This document shows, one piece after another, positions 23,683 to 60,377 of a DNA stretch of 64,000 nt. A model generated the notes under the pieces. It worked only from the letters and a program-made list of their open reading frames with translations. It ran no database searches and had not been told where the DNA came from. Position 1 is the stretch's first letter; each line of letters opens with the position of its first letter. The position numbers and the translations under genes are program-made. Source of the DNA: Caballeronia turbans (lineage in GTDB: Bacteria; Pseudomonadota; Gammaproteobacteria; Burkholderiales; Burkholderiaceae); contig FCOD02000005.1 in NCBI GenBank assembly GCA_001544655.2, positions 1 through 64,000 on the forward strand. Reading direction: 5' to 3'.

Positions 23683-24732
23683 ATGGACAGCAACAATGGT
23701 ACGAACAATCATGCACCGATGCCGGTCGCGTTCTTCGGCATCGCCGTCGGTTCGCTCGCGCTCGCGGGCGCATGGCGCGCGGCCGCCCGCGTATGGACGA
23801 TTCCCGAGGCGGTGCCCGCGCTGCTGACGGCGAGTGCGCTCGTCGTCTGGCTCGCGTATCTCGTCGCCTACGGGCGCAAGTGGCTCGTGCAACGCGACGC
23901 GGCCGTCGCCGAGATGCGTCATCCGGTGCAGTCTTCGTTCGCGGCCCTCGTGCCGGTATCGACGATGCTCGCCGCGCAAGCCGTGCAGGCGTATTCGCGC
24001 GATTTCGCCATCGCGCTCTTCGTGATTGGCGCGGTGAGCTCGCTTGCGCTCGGCGCGTATCTGCAAGGACGGTTCTGGCAAGGCGGCCGCAAGCCCGAGC
24101 CGATCACGCCCGCGATCTATCTGCCGACCGTCGCGCCGAGCTTCGTCGCGGGAACGGCAGCGGCCGGTCTCGGCTTCACGCAACTCGGCATGTTGTTCTT
24201 CGGCGCGGGTGTGTTCTCGTGGCTCGCGATCGAATCCATCGTGCTGCATCGCGCCGCCGTGCATGAGCCACTGCCCGAAGCGCTGCGCCCGAGCCTCGGC
24301 ATTCAGCTTGCGCCGCCGGTCGTCGGAGGCGTGTCGTATCTCGCGATGACGCATGGCGTACCGGATATGTTCGCCTACATGCTGCTCGGCTACGGTCTTT
24401 ATCAGGCGCTGATGCTGACGCGTCTCGTCCCGTGGATTCGTCAAACCGCGTTCACGCCTTCGTACTGGGCCTTCAGCTTCGGCGCGGCGGCATTGCCGAC
24501 GATGGCGATCCGGATGCTCGAACGCGGCGCGACGGGGCCGATGGTGTGGATCGCGCCGGCGGCGTTCGTCGTGGCGAACGTCGTGATCGGTCTCATGATC
24601 GCGGGGACGCTGCGGGCGATTGCACGAGGCACCCTGTTGCCGGTCTCAACGCCTGCTGCGCCCGCGAATGTGACACCGCTCAAGGACAACGTGCGCTCCA
24701 TCGAAAGCCGTGCCGTAGCAGGCTCAGGTTGA
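23683..24732 (+). CDS. TehA/SLAC1-family (TDT) membrane channel or exporter
   Basis: A 349-residue protein with ten predicted helices. It opens MPVAFFGIAVGSLALAGAWR, which matches the first helix of TehA/SLAC1 proteins. It continues with RHPVQSSFAALVPVSTMLAA, also typical. Homologues conduct anions or mediate tellurite or dicarboxylate export. A GGAGAAGGG site precedes the ATG. No tehB methyltransferase is adjacent, so tellurite resistance should not be assumed. Confidence 0.85.
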   Translation: MDSNNGTNNHAPMPVAFFGIAVGSLALAGAWRAAARVWTIPEAVPALLTASALVVWLAYLVAYGRKWLVQRDAAVAEMRHPVQSSFAALVPVSTMLAAQAVQAYSRDFAIALFVIGAVSSLALGAYLQGRFWQGGRKPEPITPAIYLPTVAPSFVAGTAAAGLGFTQLGMLFFGAGVFSWLAIESIVLHRAAVHEPLPEALRPSLGIQLAPPVVGGVSYLAMTHGVPDMFAYMLLGYGLYQALMLTRLVPWIRQTAFTPSYWAFSFGAAALPTMAIRMLERGATGPMVWIAPAAFVVANVVIGLMIAGTLRAIARGTLLPVSTPAAPANVTPLKDNVRSIESRAVAGSG

Positions 24733-24774: not shown

Positions 24775-25560
24775 TTACAAGATCAACACCTCGCCAGAGC
24801 GCAACGCACGTAGCGACACTCCCGGCAACGCGGCGCGCAGTTCATCGAGAATCTGCGCGCCGTGCGGCGGTTTCAGATGCGAAATCAGCAATTCGGCCTT
24901 CATCTCGACGCCGCGCACATCATCCGCGATGAGACTCGGGCAATAGTGATGCGCCGCATGCGCCAGCTTGATCTGCGCATCAGGAAACGCGGTCTCGACG
25001 ATCACATGGCGTAATCCGGGCAACGCCGAAATCGCCGCCCAGAACGCGGGATTGGTCGTCGTATCGCCGCTGAAGGCGAGACACGCTGTCTCACTCGATA
25101 CCGCGAAGCCCATCGACGGCACCGTATGTCGCGCAGGCAATGCCGCCACGGTGCGCTCATTCAACGTAATGCGCTCGCCGACCTCCAGTGCTTTGAACCG
25201 CACGCCCGGCGCCTGCGGCGAAGGAATGCGCGTGAAGTCCGGCCAGATCAGGTTGTTGAAGATATGCGCCTGCAGGATGTCGAGCGTCGCGCGGCTCGCG
25301 TGGACGATCAGTGGCGCGTCGCGGGCATCGCCCACGGCATCGATCATGAGCGGCAGATACGCGATGTGATCCAGATGCGAATGCGTGAGAAACACATGAT
25401 CGACGCGCGCGAGCTCATCGTCGGTCAGAACGGCGACGCCTGTGCCGGCGTCGATCATGATGTCGTGATCGACGAGCAGCGCGGTCGTGCCGCCGGCGTC
25501 GTTCGCCGCGACCGGGCCGCTGCTGATCGCGCCGCTACAGCCGAGTACCCGAACCTTCAT
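24775..25560 (-). CDS. Class II 3',5'-cyclic-nucleotide phosphodiesterase (metallo-beta-lactamase fold)
   Basis: A 261-residue protein whose metal-binding motif is HSHLDHI, His60, His62, Asp64 and His65. This matches the H-x-H-L-D-H core of class II cyclic-nucleotide phosphodiesterases. Further ligands are the His of PARHT and the Asp of FSGDTTTN. The gene follows the CHASE2 cyclase stop by 20 bp on the same strand, so it is probably the off-switch for the nucleotide made there. Another MBL hydrolase activity is possible, but the motif and the cyclase neighbour agree. Confidence 0.85.
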   Translation of the reverse strand: MKVRVLGCSGAISSGPVAANDAGGTTALLVDHDIMIDAGTGVAVLTDDELARVDHVFLTHSHLDHIAYLPLMIDAVGDARDAPLIVHASRATLDILQAHIFNNLIWPDFTRIPSPQAPGVRFKALEVGERITLNERTVAALPARHTVPSMGFAVSSETACLAFSGDTTTNPAFWAAISALPGLRHVIVETAFPDAQIKLAHAAHHYCPSLIADDVRGVEMKAELLISHLKPPHGAQILDELRAALPGVSLRALRSGEVLIL

Positions 25561-25580
25561 GATGCGCCCCGCCTGATGGT

Positions 25581-27809
25581 CTATTTCGTATCGAATGCGC
25601 TTACGCAGTCCCAGTCCTCGGGCAACGCGACGCCTCGCAGCGCATCGATACGCTTGCGATAGATCGCATACACCTGTCGCTCAGGATACTGCGCCGCGAG
25701 CGTCGCGAGTAGCGTTTGCGCTTCGTCCCACTCGCGCGCGCGATAGTGCGCGAGCGCCGCGTGCCAGCGCGCGAGCGCATCGGCATGTTCGTGCGGCGGC
25801 TGCGGCTCGAACACCGCGATCGGTGCGACGCGTCCCTTCACGCGCACGCGATCGATCTCGCGGAATACGACATCCGGCACCCGCTCGCGCGTCGCCTCGC
25901 CGACGATGATGTCGATATCGAAGCGTCGCGTCAGTCCTTCGAGCCGCGCCGCGACGTTCACCGCATCGCCCATCACGGTGTACGCCTTGCGCACGGACGA
26001 GCCCATGTCGCCGACCGTCATCGGTCCCGTATTGATGCCGATGCCGATCCACAAGGTCGGCCAGCCGCGCGCCGTGAGCGTGCGGTTCAGTTCGACGAGC
26101 GCGGCGCGCATGCCGAGCGCCGCGGCGAGCGCATGGCGCGCATGATCCGGATCGTCGACGGGCGCGCCCCAGAAGCCCATGATCGCATCGCCGATGTACT
26201 TGTCGAGCGTGCCGCGATGCGCGCGGATCACCTCGGTCATCGTGCCGAGATACTCGTTCATCAGCCGCGCGAGCGCTTCCGGCTCCAGTGTCTCGGCGAT
26301 CGCGGTGAAGCCGAGCACGTCGCAGAAGAGCACGGTGAGTTCCGCGCGACGGCCCGCCATGCTGTAGTCCTCGGGATGCCGGCTCATCTCCTCGACCAGT
26401 TCCGGCGGCACGTATTGCCCGAAAAGCGCGGCGAAATAGCGTTTCGCGCGGGCCTCCACGAAATAGCCGTAGGACATGTTGAGCACATGGAGCGCGAGCA
26501 CGGCAAGCAGCAGGGACGCCACGGGAATCGACCAGCCGAGCCGCGCGAACGCGAAGAGATCCGCCGCGACGATCGCAGCGAACAGCATCGCGCTGGAAAG
26601 CGTCGCGCGGGCGGGGCTGCGCCACGGCCACAGGAAGATCATCGCGAGGCCGGCGAGCACGAGCATCGACGCCTGCAACGCCGCCGCGAAAGGCGGCTCG
26701 AAGCGGATCGTGCCGTCGAGCATGCCGGCGATGAGGTTCGCGTTCACCTCGACACCCGGATACACCTCGCCGACGGGCGTCGTGCGCTGATCCATCAGCC
26801 CCGGCGCCGTCGTGCCGACGAGCGCGATCTTGCCCGCGAGCGCGCCCGCCGGAATGCGCTGCCCGAGCACATCGGCGATGGAGTAGTAAGGGAAGCTGCC
26901 CGTCGTGCCGCGATAAGGCACGAGTGCCGCGCCGTTCTCATCGACGGGAATGACGCGCGTGCCGCGCGGCGTCGTGAGCGCGAGTCCGGCGAGCGGTGAC
27001 GTTGGATCGGACGGATCGTCGAAAACGGGTGTGACCGAGGCATCGCCTAAAAGGGCGCGGAACACTTCGAGCGAGAGCGCGCCGTACACGCCGTCGCGAA
27101 ATGCGCTGATGAGCGGCACCCGGCGCACGGAGCCATCGAAGTCGATCACCGGATTGAAATAACCCGCGCGCCGCGCCGCGCTTTGCAGCGCGCTCAGGTT
27201 GCCGCCATAGCCCGTCCAGTCGAAGAGCGTGAACGGATGCGTGCCGAACGCGCGCTCGTTCATCAGCGGCGACGGAATCGCGCCGCTCGATGCGTCCCGA
27301 TTCGAGAAGTAATAGCCGAGCACGACGGGACGACCCGCGAGGGCATCGGCGAAGCGCTGATCGTAATCCAGACGCGGCGCGAGCCGCTCGAGCGCCTGCC
27401 GGTAAGCGGCGTTGTCCGCGAGCGGGCCGCGCGCGAGCTCGTCGAGCACGGCGAGGCCCGAGCTCGCGTCGGCTTCCGCGAACACCATGTCGAAGCCGAG
27501 CACCGCGACATGCTCGCGCGAAAACAGCGTATCGGCGAGCGTCGCCATGCGCGCGCGATTCCACGGCCAGCGGCCGAGTTCCGCGAGACTTTTTTCGTCG
27601 ATGTCGAGGATCGCGATGCGCGCATCGGTCGTGCGCGGCATGAAGAGGCGCACTTTCGCGTCGTAGAGCATCGCGGCCAGCGAATCGATGAAGCGGATGT
27701 CGTAGCGCGCGAGCGCGTGCCCCGCGAGCGCGACGACGATCGCGAGGCCCAGAACCCAACGCACGCCCGAGCGTTTGAGCACGGACGCAAAGAGTTCGCG
27801 CGCACTCAT
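25581..27809 (-). CDS. CHASE2-domain adenylate/guanylate cyclase
   Basis: A 742-residue membrane cyclase. The first helix is VRWVLGLAIVVALAGHALAR (about 17-36). A periplasmic CHASE2 domain follows (RIAILDIDEKSLAELGRWPW to GKIALVGTTAPGLMDQRTTP). Three clustered helices come next (about 355-430), then a class III cyclase domain. Metal aspartates are present in LFCDVLGFT (about 497) and GDAIMGFWG (about 541), and the transition-state Asn/Arg in GDAVNVAARLE. The Lys before IGDAI and Asp in VMGDAVN favour ATP over GTP. Its ATG overlaps the transporter stop (ATGA), so translation is coupled. Confidence 0.93.
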   Translation of the reverse strand: MSARELFASVLKRSGVRWVLGLAIVVALAGHALARYDIRFIDSLAAMLYDAKVRLFMPRTTDARIAILDIDEKSLAELGRWPWNRARMATLADTLFSREHVAVLGFDMVFAEADASSGLAVLDELARGPLADNAAYRQALERLAPRLDYDQRFADALAGRPVVLGYYFSNRDASSGAIPSPLMNERAFGTHPFTLFDWTGYGGNLSALQSAARRAGYFNPVIDFDGSVRRVPLISAFRDGVYGALSLEVFRALLGDASVTPVFDDPSDPTSPLAGLALTTPRGTRVIPVDENGAALVPYRGTTGSFPYYSIADVLGQRIPAGALAGKIALVGTTAPGLMDQRTTPVGEVYPGVEVNANLIAGMLDGTIRFEPPFAAALQASMLVLAGLAMIFLWPWRSPARATLSSAMLFAAIVAADLFAFARLGWSIPVASLLLAVLALHVLNMSYGYFVEARAKRYFAALFGQYVPPELVEEMSRHPEDYSMAGRRAELTVLFCDVLGFTAIAETLEPEALARLMNEYLGTMTEVIRAHRGTLDKYIGDAIMGFWGAPVDDPDHARHALAAALGMRAALVELNRTLTARGWPTLWIGIGINTGPMTVGDMGSSVRKAYTVMGDAVNVAARLEGLTRRFDIDIIVGEATRERVPDVVFREIDRVRVKGRVAPIAVFEPQPPHEHADALARWHAALAHYRAREWDEAQTLLATLAAQYPERQVYAIYRKRIDALRGVALPEDWDCVSAFDTK

Positions 27810-30064
27810 TGCGCGGCCCGGATCTGCTCGTTCGCGGCGACGAGCCGCGCCGCGAGCACCCGCGCGACGAACTTGTGCATGCGCGCGGCGAGCGCGGGAT
27901 CGTCGCTTTCCAGTCGCTTCAGGGTCGCGAGCGCGAGGCGCAGCACGACGGTCGGCTCGTCGGCGACGACGTCCGCGCTGCGCCGCGCGCCGGTGTACAC
28001 GGCCATTTCGCCGACGATCGTGCCCGCGCCGAAGCTGCGCAGCCGCAACGTGCGCCCCTCGCCGACGCTGAGCGCCACCGTCACGCGTCCCGTTTCGACG
28101 AAATAGATCGAATCGCCCGGATCGGCCTGCCGGAACACGTACTCGCCGGGCGCGAGCGCGAGCGTGTCGAGATGCGGGCGCAGCGCGTCGAGCGTGTCGG
28201 GCAAGGTCGATGCGAACCCGCCCGCGCGCGTCTCACGCGACGGATCCAGCGCGCGCAGCATCTGCGTTTCGATCCATTCGAGGCCGCTGTCCAGATCGGC
28301 GAATTCATGCGGGCCGCTCGCGCCTTTCGTATCGGTGATGCCTTTGGCGAACCACGCCTTCAGCCCCGGCGAAAGGCCGGTCAAAACGAGCTGCGCGTTC
28401 GCGCGCGCGCAGGCCTCGCGCAGCCTCACGAAGCTCGCGGTGCTCGACGCATCGACGCCATGCACGCGCGCGAAATCGACGAGCACGAAGCGCACGCCCG
28501 GGCGTGCATCGGGGGCATCGGCGCTCGCTTCGAGGCGTGCGAGGATATGCGTGAGGATCGAATACGCGGTGCCGAAGAACAGAAACCCCTGCAACGCGAC
28601 GCCGTAGAGCGCGCGCGCCTCGCCATCGAGCGCGCGGCTTTCGTCGACGGTGCGCTCGACGTTCGAGCGCCGGCCACGCCCGTCGAATTCGAGGCGAAAG
28701 CAGCTCACGCGGCCATAGCGCACGACGAACAGCATGCACGCGGCGACCACGCCGAGGAGCACGCCCGCGACGATCCCATACACGGCGATGATCGCCATGA
28801 TCGCGGGAATCAGCAGATAGTCGTGCCACGGCAGGCGCCGCAACGAGTTGATGAGCCATTCGTTCAACATGGCCGCGCCGATGAAGATCTGCAGCCCCAC
28901 GAGCACGGGCTTCGGCAACAGCGCCATCAGGCTCGGAAAGCGCGCGACCACGATGAGGCAGAAGAGCGCCGCCAGCACGCCCGCGCGCCGCTCCCGTACG
29001 CCGAGACGCCAGTTGGTGATCGTGCGCGTCATCGACTGCGCGCCGACGAGTCCGCCCGCGAGCCCGGTCAGCACGTTCGCGATGCCGGCCGCGCGCATCT
29101 CGCGATTGAAGTCGACATCGCGCGAGGTCGTCACGCCGATGCTCGTCGCGTTGAGCAGCACGGTCATCGACGAGACAGCGGCGACGGCGAGAATCTCGGG
29201 CGTGCGCGAGACGAGCGTCGGCAGCCAGGCGTCGTGCAGCAGCGAGAACGGCAGGCGCATGCCGGTGATCGACTCGTAGTGAAACAGCAGCCCCATGCGG
29301 CGCGCGTCTTCCAGACTCTTGCCCGCTCCGTGCAGCCCGCCGTAGAAGATCACGATGCCGAGCGCGATCATCGACGGCAACACGATCACGTAGCGCGACA
29401 GCGGCGTGATGCGCGTGAGCACGAAGAGGCCGACCCCCACGACGAGCGCGGGCACGCTCGCGAGCCACGGCAGCGTCATGAAAAGACGCGGCGTCGCGGC
29501 GCCGACGGGCGCATCGGTGAGCACGCGCAGCGCGCCTTCGAGCAAGAGCAGGCCGGTGCCCGCGAGAAAGCCGCCGATCACCGGAAACGGGATGTACTGG
29601 ATCAGGTTGCCGCGTTTCCAGTGCGCGAGCGCGAAGAGCAGCGCGCCCGTCGTCAGCGACGACACCGCAATCAGCATCAGCACGGTGGCGAGCACGGCGC
29701 CGTCGTCGCCGCCCGCGGCATGCACCGACAGCGCGACGGACGAGGCCAGTCCCGCGAGCAGCGCCGTCGCGTTCGAATCCGGCCCCGCGATCATGAAGGG
29801 CACCGAACTCGTCAGCGCGACCACGAACGCGACGATCACGCAGCTCAGAAGCGCAGTCGGCATGCCGGCGGAGATCCACGGCGTGAGCCCGGCCGAGAAG
29901 ATCGTCGCGCCATAGCCGGCGGCGTAGGCGAGCGCGAGCAGCGCGGTGAGCACGCCCGCGAGGGCATCGACGCCGAACGCCGCGATGGCCGAGCGACCGT
30001 TCGATGCGCTCGCATCGGTCCTCGCGCGCATGAGTTTCGTGTCGCGGCTCGCGTTCTCGCTCAT
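27806..30064 (-). CDS. SulP anion transporter with STAS and cyclic-nucleotide-binding domains
   Basis: A 752-residue protein starting MSENASRDTK; GGGAG is 5 bases upstream. Its order is a SulP membrane part (about residues 25-440, with PFMIAGPDSNATALLAGLAS typical of the family), a STAS domain (about 495-600, VRFVLVDFARVHGVDASSTA), then a cyclic-nucleotide-binding domain (about 625-735). The phosphate-binding cassette is intact in VGEMAVYTGARRSADV, with the Glu and Arg that hold the cyclic phosphate. It likely imports sulfate, bicarbonate or a dicarboxylate under cyclic-nucleotide control. The cyclase gene overlaps its stop codon. Confidence 0.92.
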   Translation of the reverse strand: MSENASRDTKLMRARTDASASNGRSAIAAFGVDALAGVLTALLALAYAAGYGATIFSAGLTPWISAGMPTALLSCVIVAFVVALTSSVPFMIAGPDSNATALLAGLASSVALSVHAAGGDDGAVLATVLMLIAVSSLTTGALLFALAHWKRGNLIQYIPFPVIGGFLAGTGLLLLEGALRVLTDAPVGAATPRLFMTLPWLASVPALVVGVGLFVLTRITPLSRYVIVLPSMIALGIVIFYGGLHGAGKSLEDARRMGLLFHYESITGMRLPFSLLHDAWLPTLVSRTPEILAVAAVSSMTVLLNATSIGVTTSRDVDFNREMRAAGIANVLTGLAGGLVGAQSMTRTITNWRLGVRERRAGVLAALFCLIVVARFPSLMALLPKPVLVGLQIFIGAAMLNEWLINSLRRLPWHDYLLIPAIMAIIAVYGIVAGVLLGVVAACMLFVVRYGRVSCFRLEFDGRGRRSNVERTVDESRALDGEARALYGVALQGFLFFGTAYSILTHILARLEASADAPDARPGVRFVLVDFARVHGVDASSTASFVRLREACARANAQLVLTGLSPGLKAWFAKGITDTKGASGPHEFADLDSGLEWIETQMLRALDPSRETRAGGFASTLPDTLDALRPHLDTLALAPGEYVFRQADPGDSIYFVETGRVTVALSVGEGRTLRLRSFGAGTIVGEMAVYTGARRSADVVADEPTVVLRLALATLKRLESDDPALAARMHKFVARVLAARLVAANEQIRAAQ

Positions 30065-30075
30065 CGCGGCTCCCG

Positions 30076-30729
30076 CTAGCGGCACGCCGCCGAGGGCACC
30101 ACCGGCGTGACGCGCGACGCCGGGAGCACCCCGAACGGCGAGCGCGCGCTGATGACGATCGTGCCTTCTCCCGCGCGCACGATCTGCCGGTCCACCTGAT
30201 TGATCACGACGATCTGCCCGTCATAGACGACGATCTGATCGCCCTTGCAATCCGCATTGCCGCCGGGTTCGAGGTTCGCGCAGTCCGTCACGGAATATTC
30301 GGTGCCGCGTATGCCGATGGTCGAAGTCGGCGTCTTCACGCGATAGTTCTCCGGCTTGCCTTCCTTCGCGACGAGCCCGTCCACGGCGCGCAATCCGCCT
30401 TTCACGAGCGAGAGAAAGCTGCGGTCTTCCTGCGGCGCGTTCGCCGCGTAGCGGAAATCGTCGACGCGAAAGACCGAGCCGGGCTTCAGATACACGCGTT
30501 GCTTGTCGGTGAAGATCATCACGATCTCGGACGCGACGCCCGTCTGCACGGTGTCGCCGTTTTCGATGTTGCCGCCGACCGCCGCCACGCGCTGCGCGCC
30601 GTTCGCGCCTTGAATGGCGACATTGCCGACGAGCGCCGTGATGGTGGCGACCGGCTCGGCCGCCGCCACGCACACCGATATCGCCAGAAGGAGAAGCAGA
30701 AGCGGGAGGAATCGTCGGGCGCGCGTCAT
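30076..30729 (-). CDS. Periplasmic FecR-domain protein
   Basis: A 217-residue protein with a signal peptide (LPLLLLLLAISVCVAAAEP). A FecR domain follows (ITALVGNVAIQGANGAQRVA; RVYLKPGSVFRVDDF), then PTSTIGIRGTEYSV, the sequence common to FecR proteins encoded beside CHASE2 cyclases. Two cysteines (DCANLE, DCKGDQ) may pair. It is not next to an ECF sigma gene, so it is unlikely to be an iron anti-sigma. It sits between the TpsB and SulP genes with gaps of 8 and 11 bp. A role as periplasmic partner of CHASE2 is an inference. Confidence 0.87.
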   Translation of the reverse strand: MTRARRFLPLLLLLLAISVCVAAAEPVATITALVGNVAIQGANGAQRVAAVGGNIENGDTVQTGVASEIVMIFTDKQRVYLKPGSVFRVDDFRYAANAPQEDRSFLSLVKGGLRAVDGLVAKEGKPENYRVKTPTSTIGIRGTEYSVTDCANLEPGGNADCKGDQIVVYDGQIVVINQVDRQIVRAGEGTIVISARSPFGVLPASRVTPVVPSAACR

Positions 30730-30737
30730 GATCGGTT

Positions 30738-32504
30738 TCAGAAGGACTTCGTGAGCGCGACCCAGAAGCGGTTCGCGTGGCCCGTGCCGAGGGTCGGCGG
30801 GACGTAGCCGAGGGTGTGCGCATACGACATCGACAGCAGGAACGCATGCGGCGCGGTGAAGGTGGCGCCGACGCCCAGTCCCGACAGCCTCACGTGATCG
30901 CTGCCGGGCACGACCGGATGCGCGACGATCCTGCCATCGGCGGTATCGATGAAACCGGCCAGCGTGACGAGCACCGGCACGAGCGATTGCCTGAGCGTCT
31001 GACGCACTTCGAAGGTCGCGATATACGCTTCGTCGACGGGCGCGTCGCCGGTCGCATAGGCGCGCACCGCGTAGGGGCCGCCGAGCGAGATCTGTTCGGA
31101 CGAGTCGAGATTGCGCGAGGTCGCCTGGCCGCTGAGCGAGAAGTAGAGTTGCGTGCCGTTGGCCTGATCGCCGATCACCTGCGTATGCGTGACGGCGAAG
31201 ACGAACTTCGTGAACGAGCCGGCGATCTGCGAGGCGACTTGCTCCGGCTGCGGCGACTTGAAGCGCAGGTTGCCTTGCTGGATGCCCGTGTCGAAGGTCG
31301 TGATGCTTTTTTCGAGCGTCAGATTGCCCGACAGCCCGAGGCGCGCGACATCGCTCGTTTTGTCGCTCACGGAATCGAACGCGCCCAGATGATCCGACAG
31401 CAGCTTGTGGTCGTAGCCGAGCGTCGTGTACACGTTTGCCGCGGGCGCGCGCAGCAGCGGATAGCTGACGAACGTCGAGAAGACGTTCGCGCTGCCGTAG
31501 GCGTCGAGTTCGTCGAACTGGCCGCCGACCGAATAAGTCGAGCGGGTATAGCCGATGCCCCACGCGAGGCCGCTGCCGCCGAGCGGCACCGTATAGCCGA
31601 TGTTGCCGTAGAACTGCCCGGTGATCGAGCCGAGCAGCCGCGCACCCAGCTGATCGCCGATGCCAAGCGGATTGTTCCATTGCAGCGCGCCGATGAGACG
31701 CGCGGTGCCGGTCGTCGTCTGGCCGTAGTTGTCGGCCTGCATGCTGCCCGACAGGGGCCGCGCCTTCGGCACCTGCAGCGTCATGTCGGACGTGCCGGGA
31801 AGCAGTCCGGGCGAGATCGTCGCGTTCGCGCCCGTCGTGCCGGCCGCGTCCTGCGCGAGCAGCGTGGCGCGGGTCAGCGCGTGCTCGTCGATCACGTCGC
31901 CCGGTTCGAGCCCGCCGAAAAAGCGCGCGATGACCGTATCGCGCGTGCGTGACCGATTGTCGATGCCGATGCGCCCATAGCGCCCCTCGCTGAGCGCGAT
32001 GCGCACGATGCCGTTGTCGATCTGTTGCGGCGGCACGTAGGCCCGCGCGACCAGATAGCCATGCCGGCGATAAAACGCGCTGACGCGATCGGCCGCGCTT
32101 TCTAGGTCGTCCAGCGAACGGTCCGCGCCGATGAGCGGGCGCACGACGTCGAGCAGCGTCGCGGCCGGAAAAAGCGTGTTCCCGGTGAACTCGAAGCCTT
32201 TCACCTCGAAGCGGATGCCGCCGGGCGCGCTCGACGCGGGCGGCGGCCCGGGCGCGGGCGTCACGTTCAGGCGAAGGTCGGAGGGCGGCACGGGCGCGGG
32301 CGATTGCTGCTGCTGTTCGCGCAGGATGCTGCCCGCGTTCGGCAGTGCCTGCGCGTGCGCCTCGCGCATGTCGCGCGCCGTCGCCGCGACGAGCGTCGCG
32401 AAAAGCACGGCGAGCCGGCGGGCTGCGCCGCTGCGGCGTCGTTCGCGGGGCCCGAAGCGTCGCACGCGCCTTGGCTTCACATGCGGCATACGTGACCGGG
32501 CCAT
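30738..32504 (-). CDS. Two-partner secretion outer-membrane transporter (TpsB; ShlB/FhaC family)
   Basis: A 588-residue protein. Its Arg-rich N-terminus leads into a signal segment (LAVLFATLVAATARDMREAH), a Pro-rich linker, POTRA domains (GGIRFEVKGFEFTGNTLFPA; IVRIALSEGRYGRIGIDN) and a 16-strand barrel. The family hallmark of strand/L6 loop is VRAY in GGPYAVRAYATGD, and the chain ends in Phe. It threads its TpsA partner, encoded upstream, across the outer membrane. The first ATG lies 28 bp inside the tpsA 3' end; MPHVKPRR at 32489 is an alternative start. Confidence 0.92.
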   Translation of the reverse strand: MARSRMPHVKPRRVRRFGPRERRRSGAARRLAVLFATLVAATARDMREAHAQALPNAGSILREQQQQSPAPVPPSDLRLNVTPAPGPPPASSAPGGIRFEVKGFEFTGNTLFPAATLLDVVRPLIGADRSLDDLESAADRVSAFYRRHGYLVARAYVPPQQIDNGIVRIALSEGRYGRIGIDNRSRTRDTVIARFFGGLEPGDVIDEHALTRATLLAQDAAGTTGANATISPGLLPGTSDMTLQVPKARPLSGSMQADNYGQTTTGTARLIGALQWNNPLGIGDQLGARLLGSITGQFYGNIGYTVPLGGSGLAWGIGYTRSTYSVGGQFDELDAYGSANVFSTFVSYPLLRAPAANVYTTLGYDHKLLSDHLGAFDSVSDKTSDVARLGLSGNLTLEKSITTFDTGIQQGNLRFKSPQPEQVASQIAGSFTKFVFAVTHTQVIGDQANGTQLYFSLSGQATSRNLDSSEQISLGGPYAVRAYATGDAPVDEAYIATFEVRQTLRQSLVPVLVTLAGFIDTADGRIVAHPVVPGSDHVRLSGLGVGATFTAPHAFLLSMSYAHTLGYVPPTLGTGHANRFWVALTKSF

Positions 32505-34774
32505 GCGTCGTCAGGCAGGCGGCTGCCGTCGCTCGACGAATCGGTGCGCTGCTGCACGAGCGGCGCCGACTCGGGCTGAAGCCCGGGCGTCGCATTGGAC
32601 AAAGGCGCGGGATTGGCGGCGTCGGTGCGTACGGAATCGAGAATGCCGGGCAGCGCCGCGGCGGTTGTGACGGCGGTTCCCGGCGTTTGCGGCACTTGCG
32701 GCGCCACCGGCTGCACGGGCGGCGTCACGGGTTGCACGGGCGCGCCGGCGATGCGCAGCGTGCCGCCTTGCGTCGTGATCTTGTAGCCCGTGGGGCCGCC
32801 CGTCGCGGTGATCGTGATCGCGTAGGTGCCGACCGCGGCGCCCGGCACCGCGCCCGTGCTCGTCACCGTGAAGACGAAAGGTTCGTGCTTCGTCGGACTG
32901 TCGGCGAATGCGCCGCCATAGTTCGCGCCGTTGTAGCGCAGCGCGAGCGTGACGTCGTTCGGTCCGAGCGTGCGGGGCATGTCGAACGGCACGTCGATGT
33001 TGATCGCCGTCAATGTGACTTGCTGGAGCGCATTGAACGCGAAACGGTTGCCCGGGGACGTTGCGGCGCGCGCATCGGCGCCGCCCGTGTACGCGTCGCC
33101 CCAGAGCGCGAGATTGCCGCTTTGCAGACCGCCGAATGCGTCCGCATCGGGCGCGTCGGAGTAGACGAGCCAGCGTCCGTTCGGCGAGGAAAGGGCACGC
33201 GCGCCCGCGCGGTTGACGAAGGTCGCGGCCGCGAGCGTGATGGCCGTGCCGCTCGCGCGGCTCGCGATCGGCGCGGCGAGCGTGAGCAACGGCGCCGTGA
33301 GCGTCACCGCGCCGCTCGCCGAGACGCCCGTCAAACCCGCGACGCCGCCGATGGTGAGCGGCGCGTTATCGTCGAGGGCGATCGAACCGGCGTCGGCGGC
33401 GAGCGTGCCGATGCGATTGCCCGCGTTCGTCAGTCGATAGGCGCCGGTGCCGCCTCGCAGCGCGACATTGGCTACTTCGATGGGCGCGCGCTGCGTGGCC
33501 GTGCCGCCCGTCGTCATCGAGAGCGTGCCGCGCGGCGCGCTGATGGGCGCGTGGAGCCGGATGCCGCTTTGCGCCGCGAGCGAAAGCGTATTCGCGCCGC
33601 GCCACGCGACCGGGCCATCGATCAGGACGAAGCCGAACGGCTCGAAGCCCGAAGGCGATGCGGCGCTGATCGACACATTGGTCGATTCGAGCACGCGCGA
33701 GAGCGTCGCGCTCTGAATCGTGCCGAAACGCCGTCCGATGGGATCGTCCGCGCCGACGAGCGCCGCGAAGTCGCTCGCGATGCGCCACGTGCCGGTCTGT
33801 CCCGAGGCCGCCGCCGTCGTGACCTGCGCATCGGGCGCGACGCGCACCTGCGTACCCGCCGTCTCGATGACGCCGCCCTTGCCGCCATTGGGCGCGGATG
33901 CGTCGAGCGTGCCGCCGACCTGCACGACGCCCGTGTCCGCGACGAGCCGGATCACGCCGTTCTGGTGCACGGCGCTGCGCGCGCGGATGATGCCTGTGTT
34001 GTTCACGACGTTGGCGAACAGCGCATCCTCGGCGCTCGCGGCGAGCCACGCCTGGCCGCCGTCGGCCTGAATCAGCCCGTGGTTGGCGGCGAGCGCATTC
34101 AGCGCGCCACGCTCCACCGACAGGCCGATCATGCTGTGGTCGCCGAGCGTGACGGCAATGCGTTCGCCCGCCGCGAGCGCGGCGAAACCGCCGGGCGCGT
34201 CGATCGTGCCGGCGTTGATCGCGCGCGTGCCGATCAACGCGACATAGCCGCCGGGCGCGCTCTCGATCGTCCCGAGATTGACGACCGCGCCACCGCCGCG
34301 ATGATGATGGTGACGCTCGCCGCCCGCGAACGTGTAATGGCCGCTCATGAAGTCGTTCGCCGACAGATCGAGCGTCGACGCGAGCAATCCGCCGACGTTG
34401 ACCTGCGCGCCGGGCCCGAAAATCACGCCGTTCGGATTGACGATGAAAACCTGTCCATTCGCGTCGAGCTTGCCGAAGAGCGCCGAAGGGTGCGGCCCGA
34501 CGACGCGGTTGAGCGCGATCGCGTTCGCGCCCGGCTGATTGAACGTGACCGATTCGCCGGGACGCGTGCTGAATGAATGCCAGTCGATCGCCAGCCGGCC
34601 GCTATTCTGCTGAATGGACGTATTCGCGCCCGCGCTCGTAACAGAGCCGGAGCCCGCGACGATGCGCGCGCCGGTCGGCTCCGCGTGCGCATACGTGGAG
34701 AACACGCTCAGGAGCGTGATGGAGCACAGCCGCAGCGCGGAGGAGGCGGGGCTTGCGCGCAGAGCCTTGATCAT
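32477..34774 (-). CDS. Two-partner secretion exoprotein (TpsA, filamentous-haemagglutinin type)
   Basis: A 765-residue protein from ATG 34774 (MIKALRASPA); AGGAG is 9 bases upstream. A signal peptide ends at TYAHA-EPTG. The TPS secretion domain follows, with the conserved FNQPGANAIALNRV and NPNGVIFGPGAQVNVGGLLA motifs. A beta-helical body comes next, then an MBG-like domain (ALRYNGANYGGAF) and a Pro-rich linker (PVQPVTPPVQPVAPQVPQTP). A HHHH run stands out near residue 155. It is small for an FHA adhesin, so a compact surface or released protein is expected. The tpsB gene overlaps its end. Confidence 0.9.
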   Translation of the reverse strand: MIKALRASPASSALRLCSITLLSVFSTYAHAEPTGARIVAGSGSVTSAGANTSIQQNSGRLAIDWHSFSTRPGESVTFNQPGANAIALNRVVGPHPSALFGKLDANGQVFIVNPNGVIFGPGAQVNVGGLLASTLDLSANDFMSGHYTFAGGERHHHHRGGGAVVNLGTIESAPGGYVALIGTRAINAGTIDAPGGFAALAAGERIAVTLGDHSMIGLSVERGALNALAANHGLIQADGGQAWLAASAEDALFANVVNNTGIIRARSAVHQNGVIRLVADTGVVQVGGTLDASAPNGGKGGVIETAGTQVRVAPDAQVTTAAASGQTGTWRIASDFAALVGADDPIGRRFGTIQSATLSRVLESTNVSISAASPSGFEPFGFVLIDGPVAWRGANTLSLAAQSGIRLHAPISAPRGTLSMTTGGTATQRAPIEVANVALRGGTGAYRLTNAGNRIGTLAADAGSIALDDNAPLTIGGVAGLTGVSASGAVTLTAPLLTLAAPIASRASGTAITLAAATFVNRAGARALSSPNGRWLVYSDAPDADAFGGLQSGNLALWGDAYTGGADARAATSPGNRFAFNALQQVTLTAINIDVPFDMPRTLGPNDVTLALRYNGANYGGAFADSPTKHEPFVFTVTSTGAVPGAAVGTYAITITATGGPTGYKITTQGGTLRIAGAPVQPVTPPVQPVAPQVPQTPGTAVTTAAALPGILDSVRTDAANPAPLSNATPGLQPESAPLVQQRTDSSSDGSRLPDDAWPGHVCRM

Positions 34775-34864: not shown

Positions 34865-35854
34865 CTACGCGTTTAGAGAATGTTTGAGCGCATCCCGCGC
34901 GTTATTTGTCTTAGGGATGCGATGTTTATATGACGTTCGCGCCGGCTCGCGCGCGAGCGTGCCTTCGACGAACTCGCGCAGGAACGCAACCCACGTGCGG
35001 ATCTTCGCATCGAGATACTGGCGGGACGCATACATCGCGTAGATCGTCATGGTCTGCAGTTCCCATTCGGGCAACACGCGCACGAGCGCGCCGCTTTGCA
35101 GCCACGGGAGCGCGGCGAGCATCGGCAACGGGGCGATACCCAGGCCGTTCGACAAGGCGACGGCGAGCGCGTCGGCGGAATTGACGCGCAGCCGGCCGGG
35201 CTCGAGTTCCACTTCCACCTGTCCGCGCGGGCCTTCGAAGACCCATCGGTCGACCGGGAAGAAGGTCGTCACGAGTTGCAGGCACGTGTGATCGGTCAGA
35301 TCCTCGATGCGCTGCGGCGCGCCCGCGCGCTTCAGATAGCCGGGCGACGCGCAGAGCACGCTCGGCATCGAGCAGATTTTCGTGGAAACGAGCGCCGAGT
35401 CGGGCAGGGTGGACGTGGTGACTTGCAGGAAGACGTCGAAGCCTTCGTCGAGCATGTCGGGCACGTGCTGCGAGAGCGTCAGCTCGACGCGCACCTGCGG
35501 ATGCTCCTCCAGATAGCGCGTGAGCGCCGGCACGACGTAATGCTGGCCGAAGGTGATCGGCGCATGCATACGCAGCACGCCGCTCGGCGAAACCTGCGCG
35601 TCGCCCGCTTCGGCCTCGGAGAGATCGACGAGCTCGAGCACCTCCTTGCAGCGGGTCAGATAACGGTTGCCGGCGTCGGTGAGCGCGACGCGCCGCGTCG
35701 TGCGATTGAGAAGACGCGTGCGCAGATGCGTCTCGAGTTCGGTGACGGCGCGCGATGCCTGCGCCGTCGTAATGTCCATTTGCTGCGCCGCGATCGTGAA
35801 GCTCGCTGCTTCCGCCACGCGCGCAAAGATCCTCATGCTGCGCAGTAAGTCCAT
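34865..35854 (-). CDS. LysR-family transcriptional regulator
   Basis: A 329-residue LysR protein (MDLLRSMRIFARVAEAASFT). It has an N-terminal helix-turn-helix (about residues 18-60, ending RLLNRTTRRVALTDAGNRYL) and a C-terminal effector-binding domain. The group resembles the DsdC/CrgA-like regulators that act on neighbouring or divergent genes. It lies 90 bp upstream of tpsA in the same direction. A 17-bp dyad about 100 bp upstream of its own start could be its operator. The C-terminal tail (TSYKHRIPKTNNARDALKHS) is longer than usual. Confidence 0.9.
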   Translation of the reverse strand: MDLLRSMRIFARVAEAASFTIAAQQMDITTAQASRAVTELETHLRTRLLNRTTRRVALTDAGNRYLTRCKEVLELVDLSEAEAGDAQVSPSGVLRMHAPITFGQHYVVPALTRYLEEHPQVRVELTLSQHVPDMLDEGFDVFLQVTTSTLPDSALVSTKICSMPSVLCASPGYLKRAGAPQRIEDLTDHTCLQLVTTFFPVDRWVFEGPRGQVEVELEPGRLRVNSADALAVALSNGLGIAPLPMLAALPWLQSGALVRVLPEWELQTMTIYAMYASRQYLDAKIRTWVAFLREFVEGTLAREPARTSYKHRIPKTNNARDALKHSLNA

Positions 35855-45080: not shown

Positions 45081-46730
45081 TGTCATGGCCAGATACAAAT
45101 GTCGGGGTGCGGGCTAAATACAGATGTCGTATCTATCCAAGGATTTTGCGCTCACACGGTGTTGAAGAAAGCGGGTTGCACGGGCAGGGCGCGGATGCGT
45201 CGACTTCCCCGTTTGCTGAGCGCCGAGCTGTTTTTACTGACGCGGCACCGCGTTCGTGTTCATGCAGCGCGATCATCGTTGCCTCCAAGTCCTGTTGCGT
45301 GAGCTCGCGCTGTTTCTTGGTGCCGGATGCGCGGCGTGGCGTGCGTACCTGCGCGCCGCGATGCGTGCGCGAGGGCGCCGTGCCAATGCTGCGGTTGTCG
45401 CGCTGAGCCTGCACCGCCTGCGCCAACTCAAGCACGTGCGCGAGACGCTTGCACTCGACGATCGCCCCCTGATCGACCTCGGTGAGACGGTCGTACTGCC
45501 GGCATACCAGCGCCCGCTCGCCGGCCCGCAACTGCGTGCGTCCGTCCGGATATTCCCACACCTCGATGTCACGGTGGATCAGCGCGCGGTTCGCGTCGGT
45601 ATCTTCCAGCAGATACAACACGCGGTCGTATTGCACGGTGAGCGTCTTGGTGACCCGTCGCGCTTCGCGCCACGTCAGCGCCCGCTCCAGACTCTCGTCG
45701 GCGCGCAGTGAACGATGCGCGTCATGGTCGCTTCTCGGTGGCTTGGCAAAGCGCGCGTTGTAGTCGGCCATGAAGCAGGGCGCATAGGCGTTGGCTTGCG
45801 CCACCGTGCTGATGCCGCGCAGGCGTAATTCCTTGACCAGCCGGTCCTGCAAGGTCAGATGCGCGCGTTCCACGCGACCCTTGGCCGGGCTCGAATTGGC
45901 GCAGAAGGTGTCGATGTTGAGCTCGTACATGGCCCGGCCAAATTGCGTCATGGGGTTGCCGGTCTTGCCCGCGCGCGCATTGCGAAACACCGTGAACTTG
46001 TCGCTATAGAACGCGCCTGGCTTGCCATGGCGCTCGATGTACGCGCGCGTGGCCTCGAAGTAGCTGAAAGTCGACTCGCTGCGCGTGAAATGCAGCAACA
46101 TCAGCCGGCTGGTGGCGTCGTCGACGTACACCAGCAGCGTGCATTGTGGCGCGCGCGCCTCGAACCAGCGATGCTCGCAGCCGTCGATCTGAATCAGTTC
46201 ACCCAGACACGAACGGCGCGCGCGCGGCTGATAGACCTTGGGCGGGCGCTGCCGGCGCGGCACCCATAGGCCCGCTTCGGTCATCAGATGCCGCACCGTT
46301 TCCTTGGCCAGCCGGATGCCGTGGCATTGCTCGAGCTTCTCGCGCGCCAAAGTCGGGCCGAAGTCGGCGTAGCGCTCTCGGATAATGCTCACGGCGCGCT
46401 GCGCCAAGGCATCGTCGAGCTTGCGATTGCCCGGTCGGCCACGCTTGCCCGAAGCCACGCCTTGCAGTCCGTGCTCACGATAGCGCGTCACCAGCCGCTC
46501 GATCTGGCGTACCGTCAGGCCCAAACGCTCTGCCGCGCGTCCGGGCTTCAAACCCGACTCGACTACCGCCTCGATAACCTTCAGTCTGTCCCATTCGCGC
46601 ATGGTCAAGCTCACAGGTGGGTTCGGTGACATGGCGGACTCCCGCTGACGAACAGTCGCCAGCTTGCCACCGGTAAAAAACCCGACATCTGTAAATAGCC
46701 AGAACACGACATTAGGATAAAGCCGCAACA
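45081..46730 (-). mobile_element. Complete 1650-bp insertion sequence (ISNCY-type)
   Basis: The left end (TGTCATGGCCAGATACAAAT plus GTCG, 45081-45104) and the inverted right end (46707-46730) agree at 16 of 24 bases, including TGT, GGC and ATGTCG. An inner pair, TACAGATGTCG at 45119-45129 and CGACATCTGTA at 46683-46693, repeats the motif. AACCA flanks both sides (45076-45080 and 46731-46735) as a 5-bp target duplication. One transposase gene fills the middle. Family name is provisional. Confidence 0.87.
45133..46632 (-). CDS. ISNCY-type transposase (HTH plus DDE integrase core)
   Basis: From ATG 46632 (MSPNPPVSLTMREWDRLK) the protein has 499 residues. An N-terminal helix-turn-helix (PGRAAERLGLTVRQIERLVT) precedes an rve-type catalytic core. 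Its acidic residues appear as Asp in LIQIDGCEHRWFE, Asp in FYSDKFTVF and Glu in AKGRVERAHLT. A basic C-terminus follows. The frame is intact and lies wholly within the 45081-46730 inverted repeats, so the element may still be active. Confidence 0.9.
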   Translation of the reverse strand: MSPNPPVSLTMREWDRLKVIEAVVESGLKPGRAAERLGLTVRQIERLVTRYREHGLQGVASGKRGRPGNRKLDDALAQRAVSIIRERYADFGPTLAREKLEQCHGIRLAKETVRHLMTEAGLWVPRRQRPPKVYQPRARRSCLGELIQIDGCEHRWFEARAPQCTLLVYVDDATSRLMLLHFTRSESTFSYFEATRAYIERHGKPGAFYSDKFTVFRNARAGKTGNPMTQFGRAMYELNIDTFCANSSPAKGRVERAHLTLQDRLVKELRLRGISTVAQANAYAPCFMADYNARFAKPPRSDHDAHRSLRADESLERALTWREARRVTKTLTVQYDRVLYLLEDTDANRALIHRDIEVWEYPDGRTQLRAGERALVCRQYDRLTEVDQGAIVECKRLAHVLELAQAVQAQRDNRSIGTAPSRTHRGAQVRTPRRASGTKKQRELTQQDLEATMIALHEHERGAASVKTARRSANGEVDASAPCPCNPLSSTPCERKILG

Positions 46731-46735
46731 AACCA
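46731..46735. repeat. Target-site duplication AACCA, right copy
   Basis: AACCA directly after the IS right end, pairing with 45076-45080. Confidence 0.75.
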
Positions 46736-57234: not shown

Positions 57235-58758
57235 TCAGCGCGTATTCGGCGCCACATACCGGCACTCGAAGCGCTTTCTCACCGTGCCGTTCTCATCGAC
57301 GCTTTCGAGATAGACATCGAACTGCCACAAGCGCGCCATGTGCTTGAGGACTTCGTCGCTGTCGTTCGAGAGATGGCGGTTGTCGGTCATGAAGTGACGC
57401 AGCGTCAGACTGCGATCGCCACGCGTATTCACCGAATACACCTGGATGTTCGGCTCGCGATGATGAATATCGTATTGCCGCGACAGCGCCTGACGAACAT
57501 AGCGATAGCCGCTGTCGTCATGAATCGCCGACACTTCGAGTGCGTCGCGCATGTCGTCGTCGAGAATCGAGAACAGGCGCATCTCGCGAATCAGATGCGG
57601 CGACAGATATTGCGCGATGAAGCTTTCGTCCTTGAAGTTGCGCATCGCGTAGTGCAAGGACTCCAGCCAGTCGCTGCCCGCGAGGTCGGGGAACCACTCG
57701 CGATCTTCGTCCGTCGGGTTTTCGCAGATGCGGCGGATATCGCTCATCATCGAAAAGCCGAGCGCGTACGGATTGATGCCGCTGTAATACGGCTTTGTCA
57801 CCGGCGGTTGATACACGACGTTCGAATGCGAGTGCAGAAACTCCATCATGAAGCTGTCTTCGAGACGGCCTTCGTTGTAGAGCGTGTTGAGCAGCGTGTA
57901 GTGCCAGAACGTCGCCCAGCCTTCGTTCATCACCTGCGTCTGCCGCTGCGGATAAAAATACTGGCCGATCTTGCGCACGATGCGGATGACTTCGCGCTCC
58001 CACGGCTCGAGCAACGGCGCGTTTTTCTCCGCGAAGTACAACAAGTTCTCCTGCGGCTCCGGCGGATAGCGGCTTTCGATTTCCTCCGGCGATGGCTCCT
58101 TTCCCTTGGGCAGCGTGCGCCACAACTCGTTGACCTGCGATTGCAGATACGCTTCGCGTTCGCGCCGCATCGCCGCTTCCTTCGCAAGCGATAGCTTTTG
58201 CGGCCGCTTGTAGCGATCGACGCCATAGTTCATGAGCGCGTGGCACGAGTCGAGCAGTTCCTCGACGCGATCCAGTCCATATCGCTCCTCGCATTCCGCG
58301 ATGTAATTCTTCGCGTAGACGAGGTAGTCGATGATCGCGTGCGCGTCCGTCCAGAGCCGGAAGAGGTAGTTGCCCTTGAAGAACGAGTTGTGCCCGTACG
58401 CCGCGTGAGCGATCACGAGCGCCTGCATCGTCATGGTGTTCTCTTCCATGAGATACGCGATGCAGGGATTCGAATTGATGACGATTTCGTACGCGAGGCC
58501 CATTTGCCCGCGCCGATAGCCTTTCTCTGTCGCGAGAAAATGCTTGCCGAACGACCAGTGCCGGTAGTTCACCGGCATTCCGACGGACGCATACGCATCC
58601 ATCATCTGTTCGGAGCTGATGATTTCCAGCTGAATGGGGTAAGTGTCGAGACCGTAACCGTTCGCGACGCGCGAAATTTCAGCGTCGTACTCCTCGATCA
58701 GCTCGACGCTCCAGTCCGACGGGCACGGCAGCGGTCGCCGTTTCTCCGAAACATTCAT
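57235..58758 (-). CDS. SpoVR-family protein (YcgB-like)
   Basis: The 507 residues from ATG 58758 (MNVSEKRRPLPCPSDWSVEL) match the length of E. coli YcgB (510). Conserved blocks include EIISSEQMMDAYASVGMPVN, LMEENTMTMQALVIAHAAYG, HALMNYGVDRYKRPQKLSLA and FYPQRQTQVMNEGWATFWHY. The frame stays open to an ATG at 58899 that overlaps the YeaH stop codon (ATGA). This would add 47 acidic residues, so translational coupling is possible. Role unknown; encoded with PrkA and YeaH. Confidence 0.92.
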   Translation of the reverse strand: MNVSEKRRPLPCPSDWSVELIEEYDAEISRVANGYGLDTYPIQLEIISSEQMMDAYASVGMPVNYRHWSFGKHFLATEKGYRRGQMGLAYEIVINSNPCIAYLMEENTMTMQALVIAHAAYGHNSFFKGNYLFRLWTDAHAIIDYLVYAKNYIAECEERYGLDRVEELLDSCHALMNYGVDRYKRPQKLSLAKEAAMRREREAYLQSQVNELWRTLPKGKEPSPEEIESRYPPEPQENLLYFAEKNAPLLEPWEREVIRIVRKIGQYFYPQRQTQVMNEGWATFWHYTLLNTLYNEGRLEDSFMMEFLHSHSNVVYQPPVTKPYYSGINPYALGFSMMSDIRRICENPTDEDREWFPDLAGSDWLESLHYAMRNFKDESFIAQYLSPHLIREMRLFSILDDDMRDALEVSAIHDDSGYRYVRQALSRQYDIHHREPNIQVYSVNTRGDRSLTLRHFMTDNRHLSNDSDEVLKHMARLWQFDVYLESVDENGTVRKRFECRYVAPNTR

Positions 58759-58895
58759 TCTGCCTTCCTCGTGCGCCTCGTCTGCCTCTGCGGACGCCTT
58801 GCGTTGCTCTGCCTCAGGCCCCAGTCTGGAAGCCGCACGATCGTCCGTGCCTTCCAGTTGGTACCCACGCGTCTCGTTCTGCCAAGGCCGTGTCG

Positions 58896-60161: not shown

Positions 60162-60377
60162 ATCCAGTCTCCCGCGTTATTGGCGAGCTTGGGAGGCGCT
60201 GCGCACAGCTTCGACTGATCGCAGCGTCTTTCGTCTCGCAATTCGTCCACTGTGCGGTCCGGACGCAATCCACGCACCCGGGCCGCAGGGGACATCCTGA
60301 CTATCGCTTGCGCGGGACCGGAGTATGGCGCGTCAACGCCCACTCCCGTCGATTCCCCTATTCCTGTCCACTCTACA

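Follow-up and report, generated by a model that had tools for sequence, protein, structure and literature searches.

CHASE2 sensor domains are widespread in bacteria and, to our knowledge, most of their signals are unknown. According to the available passage on Campylobacterota, an adenylate cyclase with a CHASE2 domain is encoded in a cluster together with a phosphodiesterase (PDE), a FecR protein and a TPR protein, and the cluster was proposed to represent one pathway (PMC9239204). In the CyaD1/CyaD2/CyaK-NsrA-Clr pathway of S. meliloti, as the available passages describe it, CHASE2 cyclases signal through an outer-membrane beta-barrel (PMC13001267, PMC7529298), and the targets of the cyclic AMP (cAMP) regulator Clr include the FecR-domain protein SMc02177 (PMC13001267, PMC7529298, PMC5498481). 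Here we analyzed a 64,000-nt stretch of DNA from Caballeronia turbans (contig FCOD02000005.1, hereafter the window), in which six genes on one strand join a CHASE2 cyclase, a PDE and a FecR protein to a two-partner-secretion (TPS) pair and to a SulP/SLC26-family anion transporter with a C-terminal cyclic nucleotide monophosphate (cNMP) domain (SulP-cNMP). The window shares with the Campylobacterota cluster the grouping of a CHASE2 cyclase with a FecR-domain envelope protein and a phosphodiesterase, which in the window is a probable one; an earlier note on this DNA had stated that CHASE2 cyclases often lie near FecR proteins, which is in print for that cluster (PMC9239204). Unlike the window, the available Campylobacterota passage contains no TPS pair or SulP-cNMP protein, while the six genes of the window come without a TPR gene (PMC9239204). 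The S. meliloti pathway differs in having a CRP-type regulator as its output, and the passages available on it contain no TPS pair or SulP-cNMP protein either (PMC13001267, PMC7529298, PMC5498481). As far as the open-access literature goes (subscription journals were mostly outside the scope of our search), clusters of CHASE2 cyclase, PDE and FecR are already known and their joining to TPS or SulP-cNMP appears to be new, as no paper describing it was found.

We propose, with a probability of roughly 55%, that the six genes form a conserved operon for export-linked cAMP signalling, which consists of a TPS/FecR/CHASE2-cyclase core, a PDE acting as a local sink and a SulP-STAS-cNMP transporter as an optional target. 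The six open reading frames (ORFs) and the junction that proved most informative are located in the window as follows:

32477..34774, minus strand: tpsA, two-partner-secretion exoprotein of 765 amino acids (aa), with the TPS domain at about 33905-34669 (Pfam)
30738..32504, minus strand: tpsB, outer-membrane transporter of 588 aa, with POTRA_2 at about 31983-32210 and ShlB at about 30945-31796 (Pfam); overlaps tpsA by 28 nt
30076..30729, minus strand: fecR, small FecR-domain protein of 217 aa, with the domain at about 30286-30555 (Pfam)
27806..30064, minus strand: sulP-STAS-cNMP, SulP/SLC26-family anion transporter of 752 aa with a C-terminal cNMP domain; membrane part at about 28856-29968, cNMP domain at 27911-28156 (Pfam)
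27806..27809, minus strand: ATGA, the 4-nt overlap between the stop of sulP and the ATG of the cyclase gene
25581..27809, minus strand: CHASE2-adenylate cyclase of 742 aa, with CHASE2 at 26649-27713 and the class III catalytic domain at 25827-26348 (Pfam)
24775..25560, minus strand: metallo-beta-lactamase (MBL)-fold protein of 261 aa, probable class II cyclic-nucleotide phosphodiesterase (Pfam PDEase_II)

Recomputation of the gaps between consecutive genes, from tpsA to the PDE gene, yielded -28, 8, 11, -4 and 20, exactly the values given in the earlier note, and each of its six family names is backed by a Pfam match above the gathering cut-off. Its claim of a single operon is likely, given the conserved order and junctions and the frame-preserving sulP deletions described below, with co-transcription itself being a prediction.

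The first two genes encode a TPS pair, in which a TpsA with an N-terminal TPS domain (Pfam TPS 130.6 bits, cut-off 33.5; NCBIfam adhes_NPXG 90.1, cut-off 29.1) adjoins a TpsB with a POTRA domain and a ShlB barrel (POTRA_2 68.1 bits; ShlB 86.0 bits). A sub-threshold MBG_2 match lies near the C-terminus of TpsA (22.1 bits, cut-off 25). The FecR domain of the third protein scored 38.2 bits (cut-off 24), and its N-terminus resembles a signal peptide as judged by eye. FecR was also considered as an anti-sigma factor, and this was rejected, as the FecR domain is the only Pfam match of the 217-aa protein and no sigma factor was found among the eight proteins of the locus that were scanned.

The cyclase belongs to the CHASE2-type class III enzymes (CHASE2 175.5 bits, cut-off 26.3; Guanylate_cyc 73.0, cut-off 21.9). 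Its catalytic residues D497, K537, D541, T611, N618 and R622 are intact, and the same letters are found in all 17 operon cyclases aligned (L220-L222 being outside the alignment). We take these residues to be the two metal-binding Asp, the base-contacting Lys with its Asp/Thr partner, and the transition-state Asn and Arg. The Lys/Thr pair is presumably the adenylate pattern, for which the predicted product is cAMP rather than cGMP, and Thr in place of the adenine-binding Asp, as found at T611, is what we assume to be the pattern of class IIIb, bicarbonate-responsive cyclases, with the bicarbonate response of this enzyme being a prediction only. A cyanobacterial CyaC is reported to be stimulated by bicarbonate (PMC4284465), and the soluble cyclase to be closest to bicarbonate-stimulated enzymes of cyanobacteria and myxobacteria (PMC3918592). 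The product of the last gene is probably a class II cyclic-nucleotide phosphodiesterase: it matches PDEase_II at 50.7 bits (cut-off 23.7), and the best solved match of its profile is yeast PDE1 (4ojv, E-value 1.3e-13), with which it shares the stretch FN-x-LIWPD. Two results count against this class assignment, namely that Lactamase_B_2 scores slightly higher than PDEase_II (53.3 vs. 50.7 bits) and that the NCBIfam equivalog NF041851 is missed (32.3 vs. a cut-off of 400). The intact D-K-D-T-N-R set of the cyclase and the match to yeast PDE1 are thus consistent with the earlier note's prediction that the locus encodes both a maker and a destroyer of the nucleotide.

The gene order is conserved well beyond the window. 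A search with the cyclase alignment (E-value 1e-120) found the cyclase in 24 of the 299 genomes of the family, and the neighbourhoods were fetched for all 20 cyclase loci outside genus g12, with the window counted among them. TpsB, FecR and the cyclase are present in 20/20 loci, in each of which FecR follows TpsB, and TpsA is present in 19, the contig of the 20th ending before TpsA. All six genes occur in order in 11 loci of four genera (seven of the window's genus, two of g13 and one each of g25 and g11). Only the PDE is absent from three loci (G071, G091, G297), an intact SulP is absent from five that keep the PDE (G139, G146, G215, G232, G256), and both are absent from G100. The 4-nt overlap of sulP and the cyclase gene is found in nine of the 11 six-gene loci, those of g13 and g25 included; the junction at L033 is not included in this computation. 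Compared with the window, the proteins of the other three genera are 55-57% (cyclase), 46-48% (SulP), 50-56% (PDE), 38-48% (FecR) and 32-45% (TpsB) identical, and the ratio of nonsynonymous to synonymous substitution (dN/dS) between the window and up to six relatives is 0.13-0.32 across the six genes (SulP, 0.20-0.29, five relatives). The L033 SulP, which was counted as intact, was left out of the SulP dN/dS. In the genome to which the window belongs, the matches number one for CHASE2, four for class III cyclases, five for ShlB and six for SulP, two of the latter with a cNMP domain; because these family matches are few and the order recurs in other genera, the grouping is more than chance. A grouping peculiar to one strain, which the earlier note had named as an outcome that would speak against its proposal, is rejected by the recurrence in 11 of 20 loci and four genera.

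We noticed that the SulP of L033 (10155-12401) is a divergent allele with a start of its own, which is 77-80% identical to the other operon copies of the same genus except for the more distant L035, L036 and L151. It is probably a replaced cassette, because the cyclase and TpsB of L033 are close to those of the window.

Further evidence for a functional unit comes from natural deletions. SulP has been deleted or gutted in six of the 20 loci, and the cyclase is kept in all six. Five of them retain one open frame that runs from the sulP ATG or nearby, 10-12 nt after the fecR stop, to the stop that lies in the 4-nt overlap with the cyclase ATG, with remnant products of 232, 124, 28, 48 and 110 aa. 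The net losses relative to the L138 allele (1560, 1884, 2172, 2112 and 1926 nt) are all multiples of 3, and phase is maintained across the long matching pieces; the same comparison gives many short matches, some of them out of phase, which were taken for chance. In the sixth locus (L222), the whole sulP is gone and a GTG-started cyclase lies 11 nt after the fecR stop, at the start site of sulP. The chance of keeping the frame in all five is 1/243 if the events were independent, a figure that is weaker in truth because some nested deletions may have a common origin. By contrast, frameshifts are found in L150 and L155, two broken SulP-cNMP copies that are not followed by an overlapping gene (Fisher p 0.048, five vs. 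two). We read the frame-preserving deletions as a sign of translational coupling, i.e., the cyclase appears to be translated in coupling with sulP, with the transporter being dispensable and the cyclase needed. In a tree of combined TpsB, FecR and cyclase, the SulP label changes four times, and three of these changes are forced by starred branches; provided that SulP was not regained, the forced changes are separate losses, at least three in number.

Based on these results, the operon could work as follows. A signal reflecting the condition of the outer membrane, or of export by the TpsA/TpsB pair, would pass through FecR to CHASE2, and the cytoplasmic domain of the cyclase would make cAMP, which the PDE would remove locally. 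cAMP, the presumed ligand, would bind the C-terminal cNMP domain of SulP and change anion transport through a putative gating, and would also act on other cNMP proteins of the cell. Synthesis of the cyclase would be tied to that of the transporter by coupled translation through the ATGA overlap. An operon that ties CHASE2 to a TpsB barrel, FecR and an exported TpsA is a concrete candidate for what CHASE2 senses, and the natural deletions provide a comparison set of close strains with and without the transporter and with the same cyclase.

The earlier note had gone further and proposed a self-contained loop, in which an envelope signal gates SulP anion uptake via cAMP and the cyclase, PDE and transporter make up one closed circuit. 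The assignments behind it agree with our results in part. SulP scored 97.7 bits for Sulfate_transp (cut-off 23.2), 33.3 for STAS (cut-off 22.6) and 72.1 for cNMP_binding (cut-off 27.5), which places it in the SulP/SLC26 family, and an alternative start of its gene is the GTG at 30085. The phosphate-binding cassette of cNMP domains has the motif GE(L/M)A...R(S/T)A. A complete-looking cassette (GEMAVYTGARRSADV) is found in the cNMP domain of SulP, which can probably bind cAMP and could be the nucleotide-binding transporter that the note had described. A class III cyclase lies within 3 kb of 35 of the 49 SulP-cNMP genes examined in the family, which makes cAMP a testable SulP-cNMP ligand and speaks for the loop, as does the location of all four SulP genes without a cNMP domain in the window's own genome, away from cyclase matches. 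In L185, SulP, PDE and CHASE2-cyclase genes are side by side. That the loop is self-contained is not supported, however: SulP is lost from 6/20 and the PDE from 4/20 loci, with TpsB, FecR and the cyclase in 20/20, and among the ten genomes searched whole, the PDE was found in six and gave no match at an E-value of 1e-15 in four (G071, G091, G100, G297). Moreover, the window's own genome has 13 cNMP matches, 12 of them over the cut-off, so cAMP probably has other targets. Across other SulP-cNMP lineages, a cyclase lies within 3 kb in just three (L135, L148, L185) of the 46 rows that fall outside the family clade in the tree, plasmid matches included. An envelope signal that gates anion uptake may still be one branch of the proposed operon, but we consider the closed circuit rather unlikely.

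The distribution behind these counts is as follows. There are 50 places with SulP-cNMP above 1000 bits in the 299 family genomes, 49 of which were examined (G112 was not fetched); outside the 50 are the broken copies of G157 and G221, the G100 remnant, and G074 (L148), whose full-length match scored 314 bits and has a cyclase 116 nt away. Of the 35 genes near a class III cyclase, 14 are in the window's operon type and 21 are divergent from another cyclase. The idea that SulP-cNMP always lies beside a cyclase was rejected, as thirteen same-genus paralogs among the 49, the second copy of the window's own genome included, have none in the stretches fetched; L146, with a degenerate-site cyclase 3.3 kb away, was counted as not adjacent. 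SulP-cNMP was found in 29/300 order genomes and 15/369 class genomes (E-value 1e-60; the window's own genome counted in both), and the 40 regions from these searches (L178-L217) have a cyclase within 3 kb in L185 only, that of L204 being about 4 kb away. Because a cyclase is rare outside the family clade, the link between SulP-cNMP and cyclase is largely lineage-bound, with few separate cases.

The 21 divergent loci resemble the window in that a related SulP-STAS-cNMP clade lies beside a class III cyclase whose adenine position is occupied by Thr. They differ in that no TPS, FecR or PDE match was found in the stretches, G071/G091 excepted. At L145, the only one of these loci scanned, the partner cyclase is a SAM-AC-AAA-TPR protein, and the Lys position reads Arg in seven cyclases of the 21 loci. 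It should be noted that G071/G091 (L035 5120-12700, and L036) carry both SulP-cNMP types and both cyclase types side by side, with the PDE missing. The second SulP-STAS-cNMP gene of the window's own genome (G000:C74:20327-22540, L144) has no cyclase match nearby, and genes related to it elsewhere are arranged divergently to the gene of a large class III cyclase. At L146 (9154-11296), the SulP-cNMP of another genus nests in the operon clade of the window's genus and no TPS, FecR or CHASE2 match is found in the stretch, suggesting that SulP was transferred alone.

The remnants also bear on whether SulP-cNMP could be mainly a cAMP buffer or sensor, not a transporter, so that the cNMP domain is what matters. 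In line with such a role, the 232-aa remnant of L037 has lost the membrane core but still contains the cNMP domain (66.9 bits), part of which is also left in L221. We regard this role as very improbable, given that L039, L040, L220 and L222 have lost most or all of the cNMP domain as well and that the intact SulP is under purifying selection. All six genomes with a lost operon SulP carry a SulP-cNMP paralog elsewhere, which may stand in for it.

Several observations weigh against a conserved, coupled operon. Some of the nested deletions may be one loss that was eroded further, in which case the events were not all independent. When Shine-Dalgarno sites were compared, 9.6% of random sites scored no higher than that of the cyclase, so that an own site of the cyclase is possible, and the comparison speaks neither for nor against the coupling; no Shine-Dalgarno sequence was seen for tpsB and fecR, and one is present for tpsA. 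The sulP/cyclase junction is -26 in the g11 genome G155 and a 15-nt gap in G071/G091. Promoter and terminator scans of the operon were at chance level (2 sites vs. 1.3 expected; 8 vs. 5.9). The remaining points concern the company that the cyclase keeps. In the four genomes of genus g12, the stretches fetched around the cyclase gave no match to TPS, FecR or SulP. A contig scan, of which we used the best 80 cyclase loci of a longer list, showed TpsB near only seven of them (L052, which is the window operon, L095, L117, L119, L122, L124 and L131), and the usual partners in the stretches examined are another CHASE2 gene, a PDE and a different cNMP protein.

These last points favour a view in which two neighbouring units are joined on one message by coincidence, namely a pair for adhesin export and a cAMP module that reads through it and is otherwise unrelated. 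Of the best 80 loci, 75 extend far enough to be assessed for a downstream PDE; 54 of them have it directly behind the cyclase, and in 16 a cNMP protein comes next. A second CHASE2 gene occurs in 42 of the 80, FecR in 10 and SulP in one (L052). The common betaproteobacterial neighbourhood is like the window in having the same cyclase subfamily with a PDE just downstream, whereas its cNMP domain is in a separate protein, an ORF of about 350-430 aa in 15 of the 16 loci looked at. The two loci of this common setting that were scanned adjoin CHASE2 kinase, PP2C or FHA genes: L053 has a cNMP-rhodanese fusion (the only cNMP partner scanned with Pfam), a CHASE2 kinase and an FHA gene, and L062 has a PP2C gene and a T2SSE protein. 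A GAF-T2SSE fusion as the usual betaproteobacterial cNMP partner was rejected, because the T2SSE and cNMP proteins of L062 are different ORFs. Accidental neighbourhood is hard to reconcile, however, with FecR following TpsB in all 20 loci of the window lineage, or with the regrouping of the same parts elsewhere. TpsA, TpsB, FecR and a CHASE2-cyclase are on one strand, in other orders, in metagenome-assembled genomes of Massilia (L117) and Methylobacter (L119, with TpsB split into two ORFs). An Ensifer plasmid carries ShlB, a TPS/MBG protein, FecR, a CHASE2-cyclase, SulP-cNMP and an MBL-fold protein, which gave no PDEase_II match, over about 24 kb and both strands beside NHLP export genes. We thus prefer the conserved operon and hold an accidental union to be unlikely.

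The plasmid search with the cyclase (E-value 1e-60) returned nine records, rhizobial and from Paracoccus, at 32.5-35.3% identity. In L135, L218, L136 and L219 (plasmids of Ensifer and Shinella), genes for FecR, adenylate cyclase, cNMP proteins and SulP-cNMP have genes for NHLP bacteriocin export and for Nif11-like precursors as neighbours. Among the matches listed in the contig scan, the closest named relative is Caballeronia novacaledonica (93% in the cyclase).

The transporter was compared with characterized families. SulP was rejected as the NCBIfam sulfate permease TIGR00815 (115.1 vs. a cut-off of 380.45), as the bicarbonate transporter BicA (equivalog 55.0 vs. 880, with Thr instead of the acidic residue of transmembrane helix 8, TM8) and as the C4-dicarboxylate transporter DauA (equivalog 70.5 vs. 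614). By profile match, SulP is of the same transporter family as the solved SLC26Dg (5iof, E-value 3.9e-22) and BicA (6ki1, E-value 5.6e-20). The TM8 acid, as read from the alignment, is Glu241 in SLC26Dg and Asp in BicA, whereas Thr is found in 48 of the 50 rows of the window's SulP clade, two of which are identical; the other large SulP-cNMP clade has Asp or Glu at this site in 28 of 29 rows. The TM10 site, which was aligned through prestin and which is probably that of the positive residue of helix 10, is Arg in 50/50 rows of the window's clade. According to the eLife SLC26A9 paper, all mammalian SLC26 members other than SLC26A9 carry a positively charged residue where helix 10 begins, and V393 of SLC26A9 marks the TM10 site, not the TM8 acid. 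These residues suggest that the window's SulP clade may carry out cation-independent anion exchange. Our search of the open-access literature yielded no study on the function of a bacterial SulP-cNMP protein, and the membrane part of the AlphaFold model is poor (mean pLDDT, the predicted local distance difference test, 57.9; pTM, the predicted template modelling score, 0.35).

Taken with the Lys/Thr signature of the cyclase, such an exchanger brings to mind the mammalian pairing of SLC26 with soluble cyclase. The operon might then be its bacterial counterpart, in which a cAMP-gated SLC26/SulP exchanger is co-translated with a bicarbonate-type cyclase, anion/bicarbonate entry and cAMP regulate each other, and the FecR/CHASE2 arm reports TpsA export; we consider this speculative and quite unlikely.

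Outside the counted core, a gene for a LysR-type regulator (34865..35854, minus strand; Pfam) ends 90 bp upstream of tpsA. It is found upstream of tpsA in 12 of the 16 loci of the same genus, to which this count is restricted because the stretches from other genera cover little of that region, and one of the remaining four loci stops at a contig end. Its product is a possible regulator of the operon. A gene for a TehA/SLAC1-type anion channel (23683-24732, plus strand) converges on the 3' end of the operon, as it does in L033, L034, L038, L039 and L040; the proximity of an anion channel gene to an operon with an anion transporter could be meaningful or fortuitous. An ORF for an ISNCY-family transposase (45133-46731, minus strand) lies about 10 kb from the operon, and genes of the SpoVR and PrkA families, an ordinary pair, are found at 57235-62300 on the minus strand of the window.

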